A stretch of DNA of 17,298 nt from an uncultured Ruaniaceae bacterium (GTDB taxonomy: Bacteria; Actinomycetota; Actinomycetes; Actinomycetales; Beutenbergiaceae). Position numbers and translations under genes: made by a program. Shown here one piece after another: positions 9,273 through 16,992 of the stretch. The stretch covers positions 1 through 17,298 of the forward strand of contig CAMXUZ010000226.1 of the NCBI GenBank assembly GCA_947251855.1. Direction: 5' to 3'. Numbering within the stretch: position 1 is the stretch's first letter; the number at the start of each line of letters is the position of its first letter. The notes beneath the pieces were generated by a model. The model was not told the origin of the DNA, ran no database searches, and saw only the letters and a list, made by a program, of their open reading frames with translations.

Positions 9273-10283
9273 ATGCGCATCCCCTTATCGATCCTTGATC
9301 TGGCAACCGTCGGCCGGAACGAAACCGTTGCGGAGTCCTTGCAGGGGAGCGTGAAACTCGCCGAGTTGGCTGAGGCGTGCGGCTACCATCGCATCTGGTA
9401 CGCCGAGCATCACAACATGGCCTCGATCGCGTCCTCGGCTACGAGCGTGCTCATCGCCCACGTTGCTGCCCACACCGAGTCGATCCGGCTCGGATCTGGC
9501 GGGGTGATGCTCCCGAATCACGCACCGCTCGTCATCGCCGAGCACTACGGGACGCTCGCCGAACTGCACCCGGGCCGGATCGACCTTGGCCTCGGGCGCG
9601 CCCCGGGCACGGATCCCAAGACGATGCTCGCTCTGCGCCGGGACCACGCCGCCGCCGATACCTTCCCCCACGACGTGCTCGAACTGCAGGGGTACCTCGC
9701 GGGGAATTCCCGGATCCCGGGGATCGATGCGATCCCGGGCAAAGGCACGAACGTGCCGCTGTTCATCCTCGGCTCCTCCCTCTTCGGTGCCCAGTTGGCG
9801 GCTACGCTCGGGCTTCCCTACGCGTTCGCCTCCCACTTCGCGCCCGCCGCCCTGGAGCAGGCGCTCGCGGTGTACCGCGCGGAGTTCAAACCCTCCGAGC
9901 AGCTCTCCTCCCCCTATGCGATCGCGGCGGTCAACGTCATCGCCGCCGACGAACGCGAAGACGCCGAGGAACAGAAGCAGGGCACGTTGCGCGCCCGAGT
10001 CCGGCTGTTCGTGCCCGGCGGAGCGAACCTCAGCCGGGAGGAAGCGGACATGGTCCTCGCCTCCCCGCAGGGGCAGAAGATCGCCGAGATGCTCACCTAT
10101 ACCGCGATCGGGACTCCCGAGGACGTTCGCGAATACCTCGAGGGCTTCGCGGAGCGCACCGGTGCCGATGAGCTCATCGTTGCCCACCAGAATCCCGGCG
10201 TCGACGCGCGGCTGCGCTCGGTGGAACTCACCGCACAGGCGTGGGAGCTGGGCGAACAGGGCGTGGGGGCTGGGCAGCGATAG
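9273..10283 (+). CDS. Luciferase-like (LLM class) flavin-dependent oxidoreductase
   Basis: A 336-aa TIM-barrel member of the bacterial luciferase superfamily, using reduced flavin to oxygenate an unknown substrate. Seen: [12 protein letters not shown] at the N terminus, [10 protein letters not shown] (40-49), and the block from [14 protein letters not shown] (73-86) through [16 protein letters not shown] (99-114). These are strongly characteristic of the YhbW/MsnO8-like subgroup that is nearly universal in actinobacteria. Length is normal. The start is ATG 9273, 10 nt after the MaoC stop, with no strong ribosome site. The same frame stays open far upstream, but that part shadows the MaoC gene. 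It may be read with the fatty-acid operon, but a functional link is not evident. A GC-rich hairpin directly follows the stop. Confidence 0.92.
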
Positions 10284-10670: not shown

Positions 10671-11195
10671 CTATTCCGCGAGTTCCTCCACGCCGCGGTT
10701 GGCGAGCTCGTCGGCGCGTTCGTTGCCCGGATCACCGGCATGGCCCCGGACCCACGTCCACGTCACGTCGTGACGTGTGATGAGCTCATCGAGTTCACGC
10801 CACAGCTCGGCATTCGCCACCGGCTTCTTCGCCGCGGTGCGCCAGCCGTTGCGCTTCCAGCCGTGGATCCACTCGGTCATCCCCTTCATCACGTACTGGG
10901 AATCCACGTGCAGCTCCACCCGGGAGGGGCGAGTGAGGGCCTGCAGCCCGCGGATGACGGCGGTGAGTTCCATGCGGTTGTTCGTCGTCTCCCGCTCACC
11001 GCCGAAGATCTCCTTCGAGTGCGTGCCGTACTTCATCAGCACGCCCCAGCCACCGCGGCCAGGGTTCCCCTTGCACGCACCATCGGTCCACATCCGCACC
11101 GGAACCTGCCCGGAACCATTCGACCCGGAGCCACCCGACCCAGCGCCACCCGGCCCGGCGCCCCCCGAGGTGGCATCGCCGACGCCGCCACTCAT
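10671..11195 (-). CDS. rnhA: Ribonuclease HI
   Basis: A 174-aa RNase H that cleaves the RNA strand of RNA-DNA hybrids. The acidic catalytic set is complete: Asp38 ([11 protein letters not shown]), Glu76 (NNRMELTAV), Asp98 (HVDSQYV) and Asp162 (NERADELA), with His152 in RGHAGDPGN. Residues 1-30 are a Gly/Ser-rich low-complexity head not found in the compact E. coli enzyme; residues 31-174 are a normal RNase HI domain. The start ATG 11195 overlaps the purQ stop as ATGA, so translation is probably coupled to purQ or to an internal restart within it. A start after the Gly/Ser segment cannot be excluded, but no better ribosome site was noticed. It is the last gene of the purS-purQ-rnhA run. Identification is secure. 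Confidence 0.96.
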
Positions 11196-11860
11196 GCGCG
11201 TGCTCCCAGGACCGGGGCGAAAAAGCCGCGCCCGTGGGGGGAGGGGCGGAACCCCGGCCCGACCGCGTTCCCGGGAGCGGCGAGAAGGCCGACGACGTTG
11301 CCCGCTTCGTTGCTCACACCCGCGATTCCGCGGGCCGTTCCGGTGGAGTTCGTGCCCGCGAAGCGGAGGACTACCCGACCGGAGTTTTCCACCTCGTCCA
11401 ATTCGGCCCCGCTCGCGAGGTACTGCCCCGCCCCGGTTTTCACCGGCAGGCGCAGCGACTCACCCTGGGCGAAGCTGCTCGTCCACGCCGTCGCCGCGGA
11501 CTCGAGCGTGAACCGGTCCGGCCTGGAGACGAAGCGCAGATCCTCGTTCGCAACGAGCGACCCCGGCAGCAGCCCCGCCTCGCACAACACGTGGAACCCA
11601 CTGCCCACGCCGAGCACCGGCAACCCCTCACCCGCCGCGTCGACGACCGCGCCGATCACCGGGGTCGTCCGGGCGAGGGCTCCCACGCGAAGATAGTTCC
11701 CCTACGTTGCCCCGCCCGGCACAACGACCGCGTCCACGCCGCGCAGGACGGCGTCGCGATACCACAGCAGCACCGGCTCAGCGCCGGCCATCCTCACGGC
11801 GCGAGCGGCGTCGTCGAAAAGCGCTCCCGGAAGGAGCGGGATCCCGATCCGCACCGTCAC
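11192..11860 (-). pseudogene. purQ: Degenerate PurQ (FGAM synthase glutaminase subunit) with in-frame TAG and no catalytic triad
   Basis: In actinobacteria PurQ frees ammonia from glutamine for FGAM synthase, together with PurS and PurL. The frame from GTG 11860 (4-nt overlap with the purS stop, GGAGG just upstream) aligns throughout with Pur[42 protein letters not shown], and [13 protein letters not shown] at the end. Codon 53 (11704-11702) is TAG where the family has Tyr of GGFSYGDYLR. Position 86 is Gly in GVGSGF instead of the nucleophilic Cys of G(I/V)CNGF. The PHPE motif that supplies His and Glu reads AAPG (194-197). All three triad residues are therefore lost, yet there is no frameshift over 222 codons. 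GTG 11686 could restart translation of the last 164 residues. Most likely a decaying gene; a non-catalytic role or stop readthrough is less likely but open. Confidence 0.85.
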
Positions 11861-12111
11861 TCGCCCTCCGCGGCAAACACGGCGGTTACGTCCTCCGTCA
11901 CCGGGTTGGCGAGGATGTCCTCCGCCAGTTGGCGCGCCTGGGCGAGCACGCCATCGGTGACCGGCCCCTCCACCTCGAGCTCGAAGCGCTTTCCCTGACG
12001 CACCGCCGTGAACTCGGCGAAGCCCACGCGTGGCAGCACGCCCGCGATCGCCTTTCCTTGCGGGTCCAAAATCTCAGGCTTCGGCATGACCTCAACGATC
12101 ACACGGGACAT
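11857..12111 (-). CDS. purS: Phosphoribosylformylglycinamidine synthase subunit PurS
   Basis: An 84-aa small subunit of the three-part FGAM synthase (PurL-PurQ-PurS), the fourth step of de novo purine synthesis. PurS bridges PurQ and PurL and helps pass ammonia between them. Seen: [17 protein letters not shown] (residues 7-23), PRVGF and [13 protein letters not shown], followed by [14 protein letters not shown], all characteristic; length is normal and nothing is missing. The start ATG 12111 has AGGAG 6 nt upstream. Its stop overlaps the purQ GTG by 4 nt. Its intactness next to a degenerate purQ is odd, because its known partner function needs PurQ. A weak TAGGCT -10 (12154-12149) may drive it; it is divergent from the MBL hydrolase at 12206. 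Confidence 0.95.
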
Positions 12112-12205: not shown

Positions 12206-12880
12206 ATGAGCACCGGAATTTTTCCTCCCCTATCCCCCGGATCCGAGCACATGGTCGAACTGCCCGGCCTCGCCGTCACCAAGATCGTCGTCGACGAGAA
12301 GATGCACAACAACTGCTACCTGCTGCGCTGCACCTCCACCGGAGCGCAGGCTCTCATCGACGCGGCCGACGACGCCGAGCGGCTGCTGCGGATCATCGGC
12401 CCCCAGTTGGTCACCGCCGTCATCACCACCCACTCCCACTGGGACCACCATCGCGCGCTCGCGACGGTCGTGGACGAAACCGCCGCGGTGACCGTCGCCG
12501 GCGCGCCCGACGCCCAGGAGATCACGAACCAGACCGGAGTGAAGGTCGACCTCGAGGTGAACGACGGCGATATCGTCTCCGTGGGGGCGGCCCGCCTCGG
12601 TGTCATCCGCCTGACCGGCCACACGCCGGGCTCCATCGCCCTGGTGTACGAACCCGAGGGCGTGCCCGCGCACATCTTCACCGGCGATTCGCTGTTCCCC
12701 GGCGGGGTCGGCAACACGTTCGGCGATAAGGACGCGTTCGCCACCCTCATTGACGACGTCGAAGCGAAAGTTTTCGACGAATTCGACGACGCGTGCGTGT
12801 TCCACCCCGGGCACGGAGACGATTCCACTCTCGGCGCGGAGCGCCCGCACCTGCCCCAGTGGCGGGAGCGCGGCTGGTGA
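12206..12880 (+). CDS. MBL-fold hydrolase, glyoxalase II-like
   Basis: A 224-aa metallo-beta-lactamase-fold hydrolase of the compact glyoxalase II-like (YcbL) type, probably acting on thioesters or related small esters. Metal motif THSHWDHH gives His76, His78, Asp80 and His81. His139 (TGHTPGS), Asp161 (FTGDSLFPGG) and His203 (HPGHGDD) complete the set. NNCYLL at 35-40 is the usual N-terminal strand of the group. Starts possible at ATG 12206 (leaderless-looking) or ATG 12251 (residue 16, MVELPGLAVTK); both lack a clear ribosome site. It sits between purS and purC on the opposite strand, its stop convergent with that of purC. This is a different subfamily from the MBL protein at 861. Fold is certain, substrate unknown. 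Confidence 0.92.
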   Translation: MSTGIFPPLSPGSEHMVELPGLAVTKIVVDEKMHNNCYLLRCTSTGAQALIDAADDAERLLRIIGPQLVTAVITTHSHWDHHRALATVVDETAAVTVAGAPDAQEITNQTGVKVDLEVNDGDIVSVGAARLGVIRLTGHTPGSIALVYEPEGVPAHIFTGDSLFPGGVGNTFGDKDAFATLIDDVEAKVFDEFDDACVFHPGHGDDSTLGAERPHLPQWRERGW

Positions 12881-12905: not shown

Positions 12906-13781
12906 TTACAGGTCGAGGTGGTGCCCGGTGAGCCGGTAGTACGCCTCGAGGTACCGCTCCCGGGTGCGGGCCACCACGTCCGCGGGGAGCTCGGGGGGCG
13001 GGTCGTTGCTGGCCGGGTCCCACCCGGACTCGTTCGTGAGCCAGTCCCGTAGGTACTGCTTGTCGAACGAGGGTTGCGCGCGGCCCACCTGCCACTCATC
13101 GGCGGGCCAATAGCGCGAGGAGTCGGGGGTGAGGACTTCGTCGCCGAGCACGAGTTCACCGCTCGCGGTGTGCCCGAACTCGAATTTCGTGTCGGCGAGG
13201 ATGATCCCGCGCTCTGCGGCGACCTCGGCGGCGAAGGAATAGACCTTCAGGGTGAGTTCGCGGAGCTGCTCGGCGAGGTCAGTGCCGATCTCGCGGGAGA
13301 TGTGCGCGAAGGAGACGTTCTCGTCGTGCTCGCCCACCTCGGCTTTCATCGCCGGGCTGAAGATGGGGTCGGCGAGCCGGGACCCGTCGTCGAGCCCGCC
13401 GGGCAGAGGCACCTCGCAGACCGTGCCCGACTCGCGGTACTCGGTGAGCCCGGAGCCGGTGAGGTACCCTCGAGCGACGCATTCGACGCCGATCATCTCC
13501 AGGCGGTCACAGACCATCGCCCGCCCCGCGACCTGCGCCGGAACCTCCTTCAAGGAGATGACGTGGTTGCCCACGATGCCGGTGAGCTGTTCGAACCACC
13601 ACGCGCTCAGGGCGGTGAGAACTTTGCCCTTGTCCGGGATCGGGGTGGGCAGGATGTGGTCGTAGGCGCTGATCCGGTCCGAGGCGACGACGAGGATTCG
13701 ATCCGATCCGTCCTCGGGCGCGTACAGATCGCGGACCTTGCCGGAGTACACGTGGCGCCAGCCGGGCAGTTGTGCAGTCAC
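12906..13781 (-). CDS. purC: SAICAR synthase (phosphoribosylaminoimidazole-succinocarboxamide synthase)
   Basis: A 291-aa enzyme that joins CAIR and aspartate using ATP, a late step of purine synthesis. Motifs in order: YSGKVRDLY (12-20, nucleotide loop), ASDRISAYD (33-41), ECVARGYLTGSG (100-111, family signature), ILADTKFEFG (194-203) and GDEVLTPDSSRYW (213-225, second signature). The protein is of the ~290-aa actinobacterial/fungal length rather than the ~240-aa E. coli length. The start is GTG 13781-13779 (MTAQLPGWRH). A frame back to 13931 would overlap the divergent gene at 13807 and is rejected. GGAGA sits directly against the GTG, too close to be a good ribosome site, so the transcript may be leaderless. 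It lies about 800 bp from purS but is separated by an opposite-strand gene, so it is not in the same operon. Confidence 0.96.
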   Translation of the reverse strand: MTAQLPGWRHVYSGKVRDLYAPEDGSDRILVVASDRISAYDHILPTPIPDKGKVLTALSAWWFEQLTGIVGNHVISLKEVPAQVAGRAMVCDRLEMIGVECVARGYLTGSGLTEYRESGTVCEVPLPGGLDDGSRLADPIFSPAMKAEVGEHDENVSFAHISREIGTDLAEQLRELTLKVYSFAAEVAAERGIILADTKFEFGHTASGELVLGDEVLTPDSSRYWPADEWQVGRAQPSFDKQYLRDWLTNESGWDPASNDPPPELPADVVARTRERYLEAYYRLTGHHLDL

Positions 13782-13806
13782 TCTCCGAGTGTGCCACGAT
13801 TCCGCT

Positions 13807-14907
13807 ATGGAACCGGAACCGAATCCTGAACTTGTGGCCGAGCTCGCGGGGATCCTGCGTGGCGCAGCGCACCCCGCTGCCGGGGGCGCCGCTTCGGGAG
13901 GGATCGCCGCCGAATGGTCCCAGGTCGCCACGGCCCACGCGGGTCGGATCTATACCGGCGGGAGGCGTTACCCGCTGCCCGAGGGGGCGGAGGCGGTATT
14001 CCGGAAACTTCATGAAGACATGCGTGATGAGGCCCGCGGCGCGTGGTTCAGCGCCCGGCTGGAACTACGCCCGGATGCCGCCGCTCCCGGGGGTTTCTCC
14101 CACCCCGAATTCACCGTCAATTACACCGAGCGGGTGTATTGGAACGGGGAGACGATGCTCACTCCCGCCCAGGGCGCGGCTCCGATCCCTAGCGACGCCG
14201 AGTGGTCAGCCGAGCTGCGCCGACATCCCCGCGCGCCGCAGTTCGTTCCCACGTGGATCTCCGCCCGGCCCGATACCTCGGGCGAATTCGGTGCCCTGCG
14301 CACTGCCCTGGAGAAGGCGGGCCTGCCACGCGGCGCCGCGCGGCTTCCCGGTGAGGACCACGTGACCTTCGAAGGCGCCCTGCTCGTGCGCGAACTCTCC
14401 GGCGGCTACTCCGTCGACATCTTCGATTACGGCCAGCTCCATCACCTCGGGACCGAACCGGACCCACGCTCGGCCGGCCTGCACGCGTGGAACTACCTCT
14501 CCTCACCCCTGCCCGATCCCGTTTCCCTCTCCCCTGCCGAGGTGGATCAGCGCGTCCGCGCCGCCGTGGCAGGGTACTCCGAACTCGGTGCACGCATCCA
14601 AGCGGCCGGCGCGGGCGGGATCGCCACGAACCTCGCCACGGGAGTGCCCTTCGACCGGTGGGGCGGGATCGACGGCTTCTATCTGTTCGCGTGGCAGACC
14701 CCGGTGCCGCAACGCTCCCTACCGCCCTCCGCCGTCGAGGGCGGCGCTGCTCGCGTCGGTTTTATCGCCGCCCACCCCGTCCCGGTCCAGGCGGAGTTCA
14801 GCCCCGCGTGGTTCGACCAACCCGGCGGGGGGATCCGGTTCCGGACCCATGAGCCTTTGCGCGACCTGGTGCGGGCCGGGGCGCTGCGGGTCATCACGGT
14901 CGGCTAG
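13807..14907 (+). CDS. Hypothetical protein with a possible YezG/DUF600-like segment
   Basis: A 366-aa soluble protein with no signal peptide or membrane helix. Residues 60-151 resemble, by eye, the YezG/DUF600 immunity-like fold: RGAWFSARLEL, then FTVNYTERVYWNG, then SDAEWSAELRRHPRAPQFVPTWI. The last ~200 residues (IFDYGQLHHLGTEPD, WNYLSS, GIDGFYLFAWQTP, the end at VRAGALRVITVG) are unfamiliar to me. The start ATG 13807 is only 25 nt from the divergent purC start and has no ribosome site, so its promoter must overlap the purC 5' end or the transcript is leaderless. No toxin-like gene is adjacent, so an immunity role is not supported by context. Coding is well supported by length and frame; function is not known. 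Confidence 0.7.
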   Translation: MEPEPNPELVAELAGILRGAAHPAAGGAASGGIAAEWSQVATAHAGRIYTGGRRYPLPEGAEAVFRKLHEDMRDEARGAWFSARLELRPDAAAPGGFSHPEFTVNYTERVYWNGETMLTPAQGAAPIPSDAEWSAELRRHPRAPQFVPTWISARPDTSGEFGALRTALEKAGLPRGAARLPGEDHVTFEGALLVRELSGGYSVDIFDYGQLHHLGTEPDPRSAGLHAWNYLSSPLPDPVSLSPAEVDQRVRAAVAGYSELGARIQAAGAGGIATNLATGVPFDRWGGIDGFYLFAWQTPVPQRSLPPSAVEGGAARVGFIAAHPVPVQAEFSPAWFDQPGGGIRFRTHEPLRDLVRAGALRVITVG

Positions 14908-16008: not shown

Positions 16009-16992
16009 TTACCTGCCCGCCGCCCGATCGTGCAGAACTCCTTCGGCTACCCGCCTGGCCATCACCTCGCGTATCGTCGCGATCATCTGCTGAGGATGCT
16101 CGCGAACGTCGGCCGTGGTGAACCGCAACGTTTGCCAGCCAAGGGTGGCGGCGCGTCGGTCTCGGTCGCGGTCGCGCCGTTGCGCCTCCGCTGAGGTGTG
16201 AAAGGCACGTCCGTCGATCTCAATGCCGAGTTTGAGCGCCGGTTCGGCGAAGTCGAAACGACGAATGATCCGATTGTTCATCCGCACCCGGTGCTGCCGA
16301 AGAAAATGGAGCCCGTTCGCTCTGAAGACCTCATCCGCCTCCGCCTCCAGCCCGGAATCGAACCCCTCCTCCAGTTCGGCTAGCATCCTTCGAACCTGCG
16401 CGGCGCGTGAGGACTTGGGCATCGCGGCCGCTGCCTCTTCAAGCTCAGCTGGGCTCGTTCTCTTCGTCCGGATCGCGTCATAGATCACCGCCTGGACCGC
16501 CCGCGCGGTGAGGAAGCTGCTCAGGTCAATGATGGTGCGGGCGACGGTAGTCACCGGCTTCCCCTGAATGCCGGTGGTGAAGTTGCTGAGGTTCCGGCTG
16601 CGGATGATCCTCGCACCCGGCATGCCCCGCAACTTGTGAGCGTGCGGAATGGTCAGCCACACCAACGGCGACCCCGGCCGAACGTCAAGGCCATGGATCC
16701 GGGCGGCGGAGAAGTGGCTCAACGCTGCTCCTACCGGGGCGACGCGCAGGATCGCTTGGCCAACGGTGGTGCGGGTATAGGGCGTGCTCGCTAGACGGAA
16801 CACGCCTCGGCGGATCCGCTCCCATTCGCCGAGGCGCAGACGGTAATCCACTTGGGTCGCGGTCAACCCTGCGGCGAGGGCCTGCTGCCGGGAGATGACG
16901 CCGTCCTGCTTCAATAGAAGGGCAGTGATCCGAGCCCGGGTCCGCCCCCGCGCGAGGGGATCTGCTGTGTCCCTCGATCGTTCGTTGGTCAT
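16009..16992 (-). CDS. AbiEi-type antitoxin domain fused to DUF559 (PD-(D/E)XK nuclease-like)
   Basis: A 327-aa two-part protein common in actinobacteria. Residues about 20-70 form an AbiEi-like winged-helix start (GVISRQQALAAGLTATQVDYRL then GEWERIRRGVFRL). The middle, 88-160, is the AbiEi body (LSHFSAARIHGLD, TVARTIIDLSS). The C-terminal 210-315 is DUF559, a Vsr/PD-(D/E)XK-like domain: Glu216 or Glu218, Asp247 in RRFDFAEP, Glu258/Asp260 in GIEIDGRAFH, and RDRRAATLGWQTLRFT. Acidic residues fitting a metal site are present, so nuclease activity is possible but unproven. Start ATG 16992. No AbiEii nucleotidyltransferase toxin lies beside it, so the usual type IV toxin-antitoxin partner is missing, at least on the visible side. 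Domain recognition is good; role (defence, antitoxin or housekeeping) is unknown. Confidence 0.85.
   Translation of the reverse strand: MTNERSRDTADPLARGRTRARITALLLKQDGVISRQQALAAGLTATQVDYRLRLGEWERIRRGVFRLASTPYTRTTVGQAILRVAPVGAALSHFSAARIHGLDVRPGSPLVWLTIPHAHKLRGMPGARIIRSRNLSNFTTGIQGKPVTTVARTIIDLSSFLTARAVQAVIYDAIRTKRTSPAELEEAAAAMPKSSRAAQVRRMLAELEEGFDSGLEAEADEVFRANGLHFLRQHRVRMNNRIIRRFDFAEPALKLGIEIDGRAFHTSAEAQRRDRDRDRRAATLGWQTLRFTTADVREHPQQMIATIREVMARRVAEGVLHDRAAGR

Follow-up and report, generated by a model that had tools for sequence, protein, structure and literature searches.

How can a purQ gene that stands at its usual place beside purS have lost every residue of the catalytic Cys-His-Glu triad and, in addition, carry a stop codon inside its reading frame? 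In this type of FGAM synthase, glutaminase activity resides in PurQ and synthetase activity in small PurL, and ammonia is passed between the two, according to the accessible parts of the reports describing the enzyme (PMC3815217, PMC3261824). In the archaea studied, PurQ has a conserved triad, the one exception being a changed His in two Thaumarchaeota, as far as the excerpted text of one of these reports goes (PMC3261824).

The answer favored here, with slightly less than even confidence, is that the glutaminase site was erased in place, that the PurQ body was kept as a structural pseudo-glutaminase subunit of an ammonia-fed FGAM synthase, and that the copy in the DNA examined was probably broken later, unless the contig is in error. 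In vitro, the synthetase component is able to use ammonia by itself. In the open-licence papers searched, no report of a conserved triad-less PurQ was found.

Gene order at the purQ locus

The window, i.e., the whole stretch of DNA analysed, is 17.3 kb in length, has a G+C content of 68% and, judged by the relatives of its purC, is of actinobacterial origin. Its 16 listed genes are in frame, and an internal stop is present in purQ alone. Rfam and tRNA scans of the window yielded no hits. The purQ frame is read from the minus strand, the same coordinates on the plus strand giving something else. The order on the minus strand is purC, purS, the purQ frame and rnhA, with one further gene on the plus strand:

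12906..13829, minus strand: purC, intact, start codon not settled (NF010568, 409.8 bits)
12206..12880, plus strand: metallo-beta-lactamase-fold gene between purS and purC (profile match)
11857..12111, minus strand: purS, intact, with a 4-base overlap with the start of the purQ frame (TIGR00302, 40.3 bits, cut-off 39; PF02700, 80.9 bits)
11192..11860, minus strand: purQ-like frame of 222 codons plus TGA, triad absent, one internal TAG (reading frame; NF002957, TIGR01737 and PF13507 scores)
10671..11195, minus strand: rnhA (RNase HI), intact, with a 4-base overlap with the end of the purQ frame (NF001236, 230.1 bits)

A fatty-acid cluster comprising FadE, TetR, FadI, FabG and MaoC is situated further left in the window. 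The purS and rnhA flanks given in the preliminary description of this DNA were recovered, and the same order is found in related genomes. The window purS is 63-72% identical to the purS of 23 relatives, and purQ has rnhA as a neighbor in 13 of the 23 related loci that were read.

Other genes of the neighborhood vary in their distribution. The metallo-beta-lactamase-fold gene (12206-12880) has a same-place match in G258 only, among the 23 related loci, and a relative of the TNT-domain protein that adjoins purC in the window (13807-14907, plus strand; C-terminal domain, PF14021, 58.6 bits) is located near purC or purS in 19 of them, with 35-45% identity. Between MaoC and rnhA the window has a luciferase-like (MsnO8-type) LLM oxidoreductase (9285-10283, plus strand), which is unmatched in the 23 related loci. 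The window RNase HI (10671-11195, minus strand) carries a Gly/Ser-rich N-terminal extension of approximately 30 residues, and at 16009-16992 (minus strand) there is a protein with AbiEi_4 and DUF559/MTES_1575 nuclease-like matches.

When the window FadI was searched against 396 genomes sampled from the order, the 17 best matches (74-79% identity) all came from one family of 24 genomes. The gene order shared by G258 and the window is FadE-TetR-FadI-FabG-MaoC-rnhA-purQ-purS-metallo-beta-lactamase-purC-TNT-GNAT, the window LLM oxidoreductase being unmatched in G258. A wrong strand or a foreign locus is ruled out, as synteny with G258 and G163 puts the gene where purQ normally stands, next to purS. 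Profile TIGR01737 detected PurQ in 23 of the 24 nearest-family genomes, one in each, all with Cys-His-Glu and beside purS. Small PurL is present exactly once in all 24, and in G258 approximately 15 kb separate it from purQ; the corresponding position would be beyond the left end of the window. In G307 small PurL is present and a PurQ match absent; this assembly may be incomplete. Of the 80 purC loci fetched, 57 had a purQ match, 55 of these with Cys-His-Glu and two cut by the locus end with Cys present. By its position, the window gene is the orthologue of the single ordinary purQ. Since each nearest-family genome with a match has one PurQ, triad-bearing and beside purS, loss of the triad in place is the most likely course, the window copy being the one triad-less PurQ with a known genomic context.

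The purQ frame of the window

Examined on the minus strand, the frame bore out the features first described for it, namely a TAG at codon 53, Gly86 for the nucleophilic Cys, AAPG for PHPE at codons 194-197 and an otherwise unbroken run of 222 codons:

11702..11704, minus strand: in-frame TAG, codon 53, at the Tyr position of GGFSYGDYLR (codon reading)
11687..11716, minus strand: GGFSYGDYLR changed to GGAT*GNYLR, codons 49-58 (alignment)
11594..11620, minus strand: nucleophile elbow PVLGVGSGF instead of PVLGICNGF (alignment), with Gly86 at the nucleophilic Cys site, 11603-11605
11270..11281, minus strand: AAPG (Ala-Ala-Pro-Gly) in place of PHPE, codons 194-197 (alignment)
11192..11686, minus strand: frame of 164 codons with a GTG start just past the TAG, without the first 58 residues (predicted; the longest listed product without read-through)

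Tyr occupies position 53 in 311 of the 312 triad-bearing relatives and in all ten triad-less ones. Because TAG terminates 6 of the 15 other listed genes of the window, it is a stop here and not a sense codon, and recoding of TAG is ruled out. With the TAG read as Tyr, the window frame scored 202.4 bits against NF002957 (cut-off 212) and 172.6 bits against TIGR01737 (cut-off 177.8), i.e., below both of the curated PurQ cut-offs, which were applied to this frame only. Against PF13507 it scored 47.6 bits, above the cut-off of 27. The third-position G+C of the frame is 0.857, and that of the other window genes ranges from 0.768 to 0.907.

A group of triad-less PurQ proteins

A protein search in which the query was the window PurQ with the TAG read as a residue gave P0002 (96% identity), P0003 (85%), P0004 (85%, a piece of 185 residues) and P0005-P0009 (64-67%) as the best matches. 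Seven of these eight close homologues, 64-96% identical to the window, are full length with open frames. In every one of the eight the nucleophile is replaced by Gly and the His by Ala or Ser. A profile search added two more distant, full-length triad-less PurQs, P0156 and P0198, and a third search, with P0156 as the query, gave no additional one. P0156 is named PurQ in its source record (Actinomycetaceae bacterium MAG), which means that such proteins can be called glutaminases by similarity alone. Altogether, Cys and His are both absent in 10 of the 322 PurQs read and Cys-His-Glu is present in 312, a ratio that is not a population frequency, the 322 being the best 120 listed per search out of 8000 candidates scored. 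The ten triad-less clusters represent 37 member sequences.

The claim that all three triad residues are lost applies to the window but not to the group, where Glu is kept in 4 of the 10 relatives and is Gln in the other 6; Gly at this site is the window's own. In a similar manner, the substitutions first described are shared in part, with Cys and His lost in 10/10 triad-less relatives and the TAG and Gly197 restricted to the window. Compared at the sequence level, loss of Cys and His is common to the whole group and the TAG is confined to the window copy. The same substitutions recur across the group: in all ten, Cys is replaced by Gly, His by Ala or Ser and Asp56 by Asn or Ser, and in nine of ten Asn174 is replaced by Thr. 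The KNGEG loop of PurQ is altered to KTGAG. A PurQ devoid of Cys and His should make no ammonia.

Several genome collections were searched for additional members. In the order sample, a profile search matched 327 of the 396 genomes with a best score of 312 bits, and the eight loci read all had Cys-His-Glu; 69 genomes gave no match at the cut, and a P0156-like protein could rank below the eight loci. The main-group triad-less PurQs score 344-422 bits on the same profile. Among 213 genomes of the Actinomyces bovis family, 14 were above the cut (best 329 bits), and the eight loci and G502 that were read all had Cys-His-Glu. Among the nearest genomes, searched at genus and family level (4, 3 and 24 genomes), no match scored like the triad-less group. 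A motif search of 394 genomes of the class, which recovers the window and misses Ser encoded as TCN and Leu encoded as TTR at one place, found no triad-less PurQ, and the 83 pattern hits on viral contigs included no relative. Within the scope of these searches, no genome encoding a triad-less PurQ came to light.

Constraint and fold

The reference for conservation was a set of 98 alignment columns with a conservation of 95% or more in the 312 active PurQs. Of these columns, the ones altered in no fewer than 90% of the ten dead PurQs are F52, S53, D56, I63, I86, C87, N88, N174, M194, H196 and H199 (P0010 numbering). Such losses affect 9 of the 25 conserved columns in four glutaminase motifs, which we picked with the alignment in view, versus 2 of the 73 elsewhere (Fisher p 5e-5). 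Conserved columns kept in all ten proteins are 45/73 outside the motifs versus 10/25 inside (p 0.07), that is, retention is mildly better outside. The mean pairwise identity of eight members is 0.86 in the columns outside the motifs that are conserved in active PurQ versus 0.54 in variable columns, and thus constraint persists.

Placement of the triad elsewhere in the protein would have overturned the original observation. No position has a conserved His across the eight full-length members, and P0006 has no His whatsoever, so no new triad can have formed. Also, the single invariant Cys of the eight members is present in active PurQ. A relocated triad is therefore ruled out, there being neither a conserved His nor a new conserved Cys.

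The AlphaFold model of P0002 has a pLDDT of 91. Its best solved match is 3d54_D, the PurQ of T. maritima PurLQS (TM 0.90/0.95, 34% identity), and the 3d54 PurQ is also the only PDB sequence match (E 2e-31). As modeled, the group keeps the PurQ fold. Judged at the protein level for constraint and from the missing residues for catalysis, the glutaminase domain is retained under constraint after the loss of catalysis.

Rate of evolution and phylogeny

At family-invariant columns the window PurQ departs in 38 of 104, and the seven other window genes depart in 3-12% of theirs (FadI 7/247, FabG 13/185, FadE 46/446, MaoC 2/76, rnhA 5/79, purC 7/140 and purS 5/43). Of the eight proteins, PurQ is the one best conserved within the family, with a median identity of 0.82, but its identity to the window is 0.51. 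In purS the relatives depart at no more than 1/44 invariant columns, and the change of the window PurS suggests co-change or mild relaxation. The PurQ of G258 (L112), the nearest syntenic relative, has kept Cys-His-Glu, yet 16 of its 121 family-invariant columns are changed and its branch is long. From this protein, relaxation perhaps began before the triad was lost.

The dN of the window purQ to three relatives is 0.39-0.46, and among those relatives it is 0.09-0.22. The dN/dS check proposed in the preliminary description gave 0.45-0.46 to the three relatives, values that are not 1 but that average the whole branch and rest on high dS. As the comparison pairs span 0.15-0.48, these values by themselves indicate neither relaxation nor constraint.

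In the tree, ten triad-less PurQs (the window, its eight close homologues and P0198) form one clade with a support of 100/99. With the motifs included, P0156 joins them, a branch with a support of 82/95 separating all eleven from the remaining proteins (84% of 200 bootstrap trees). With the four motifs removed, P0156 is placed apart, nearest to proteins of the Actinomycetaceae family, although the AU test does not reject a single clade (p 0.13). The triad of P0156 was perhaps lost separately from that of the main clade.

Recent death or sequence error in the window copy

The window differs from P0002 at eight positions, including the TAG and Gly197. Five of the eight affect columns that do not vary among eight group members; as 100 of the 222 columns are invariant in this way, this is near the expectation without constraint. 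Five of the eight are also located within codons 197-209. Either the window copy was recently pseudogenised or the contig is in error; in other words, the copy is probably now non-functional, or else the contig carries errors.

That the TAG and the other window-only changes are assembly or sequencing errors, the true gene being an intact dead PurQ like P0002, is a substantial possibility that nevertheless falls short of the likelier half. The 96%-identical P0002 has a Tyr in position 53, the crowding in codons 197-209 resembles a low-quality patch, and the window FadE also departs often, in comparison with at most 18/435 in five relatives. On the other hand, the other listed window genes are free of internal stops, the window FadI, FabG and MaoC depart less often than those of G258, and the two genomes are about equal in rnhA (5/79 versus 5/84) and purC (7/140 versus 6/146). 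In this comparison purS departs more in the window; FadE was compared with the five relatives.

Proposed role of the triad-less PurQ

The preliminary description left a choice between slow decay and retention as a non-catalytic partner. For the group it is retention that agrees with the open frames, the fold and the motif-focused losses; decay suits the window copy only. The PurQ body, its place and purS have all been kept, which favors a structural role within an FGAM synthase fed by ammonia. According to this proposal, the glutaminase site would have been erased in a group of actinobacterial PurQs that kept the protein, and the dead PurQ would still dock on small PurL and on PurS, serving as a structural subunit. 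The synthase may take free ammonia rather than glutamine, like CPS1, in which, by the accessible text, an inactive glutaminase-like domain is kept and ammonia is taken from outside (PMC4655335). The window copy would afterwards have gained its premature stop and changes at group-invariant sites. A stricter form of the proposal, in which FGAM synthase turned ammonia-specific in one clade with PurQ as an obligate pseudo-glutaminase of structural or gating function, possibly twice independently (in the main clade and in P0156), is put forward more tentatively. If such a lineage exists, the PurQ body would be needed beyond glutamine hydrolysis, e.g., for docking, tunnel sealing or allosteric gating, and the group would offer a natural separation-of-function protein for testing its role. 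It would also extend the CPS1-type transition to purine synthesis.

The main rival is a second PurQ in the genome. The triad-less protein would then be an extra or displaced copy, regulatory or idle in catalysis, and an active PurQ or other glutaminase encoded elsewhere would serve PurL. The fast evolution of PurQ in the group, with its long branches, is what duplicates display, and a published parallel exists in M. marisnigri, where a shortened, triad-less PurQ-like protein is found beside a full PurQ, as stated in the available portion of the report (PMC3261824). Still, we consider this rather unlikely, given that the position of the dead gene matches that of purQ in the purS-purQ-rnhA order of related genomes and that none of the 23 genomes with a PurQ match has more than one.

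Plain decay, in which the lineage is losing purine synthesis and purQ is an ageing pseudogene, would account for the in-frame TAG, the near-neutral distribution of the differences from P0002, the elevated dN of purQ and the slightly faster change of the window PurS. It is nonetheless improbable for the group, because frames stay open across 64-96% identity, constraint persists outside the active site and the losses are concentrated in the motifs, and purS and purC are intact in the window. Broken frames and absence of constraint, as in a simple pseudogene, were found in the window copy alone and not in its relatives, the predicted-protein search being biased in that broken relatives would escape it. 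Whole-group decay is thus disfavored by the open frames and by the constraint outside the motifs. Least probable of all is a new function outside FGAM synthase with the emptied pocket binding another ligand or partner, for although the consistent replacements suggest a selected site over random loss, the gene is still beside purS in the window, the fold is that of PurQ with its best match from a PurLQS complex, and there is no positive sign of another partner.

Comparison with known systems

The structural subunit proposed here is closest to the PurQ of T. maritima PurLQS (3D54), with which it has in common the fold (P0002 model), the length, the place beside purS and, away from the active site, most of the conserved columns. 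The group differs from it in the absence of Cys and His, in having Glu partly replaced by Gln, and in the altered GGFSYGDYLR loop, the GVGSGF elbow and the KTGAG loop.

Two archaeal cases are comparable, both as given in the accessible part of the same report. Memar_1841 of M. marisnigri is likewise a triad-less PurQ relative clustered with purS and purC; however, approximately 150 residues are missing from it and a full PurQ is present in the same genome, whereas the relatives of the window PurQ are full length (PMC3261824). PurF' of Crenarchaeota is similarly a purine-pathway amidotransferase without its catalytic Cys and was suggested to be ammonia-dependent. It acts at another step of the pathway and belongs to another amidotransferase class (with N-terminal Cys), and its ammonia dependence is a hypothesis there as well (PMC3261824).

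If the reading favored here is right, the S2 domain of CPS1 represents the same kind of transition: a domain of Cys-His-Glu ancestry was kept after loss of the catalytic Cys, and free ammonia is used, according to the part of the source at hand (PMC4655335). CPS1 is, however, another enzyme, the human protein having Ser in place of Cys and the domain being within one chain (PMC4655335). By the same partial account (PMC4655335), the use of ammonia is established for CPS1, whereas for the triad-less PurQ group we infer it.
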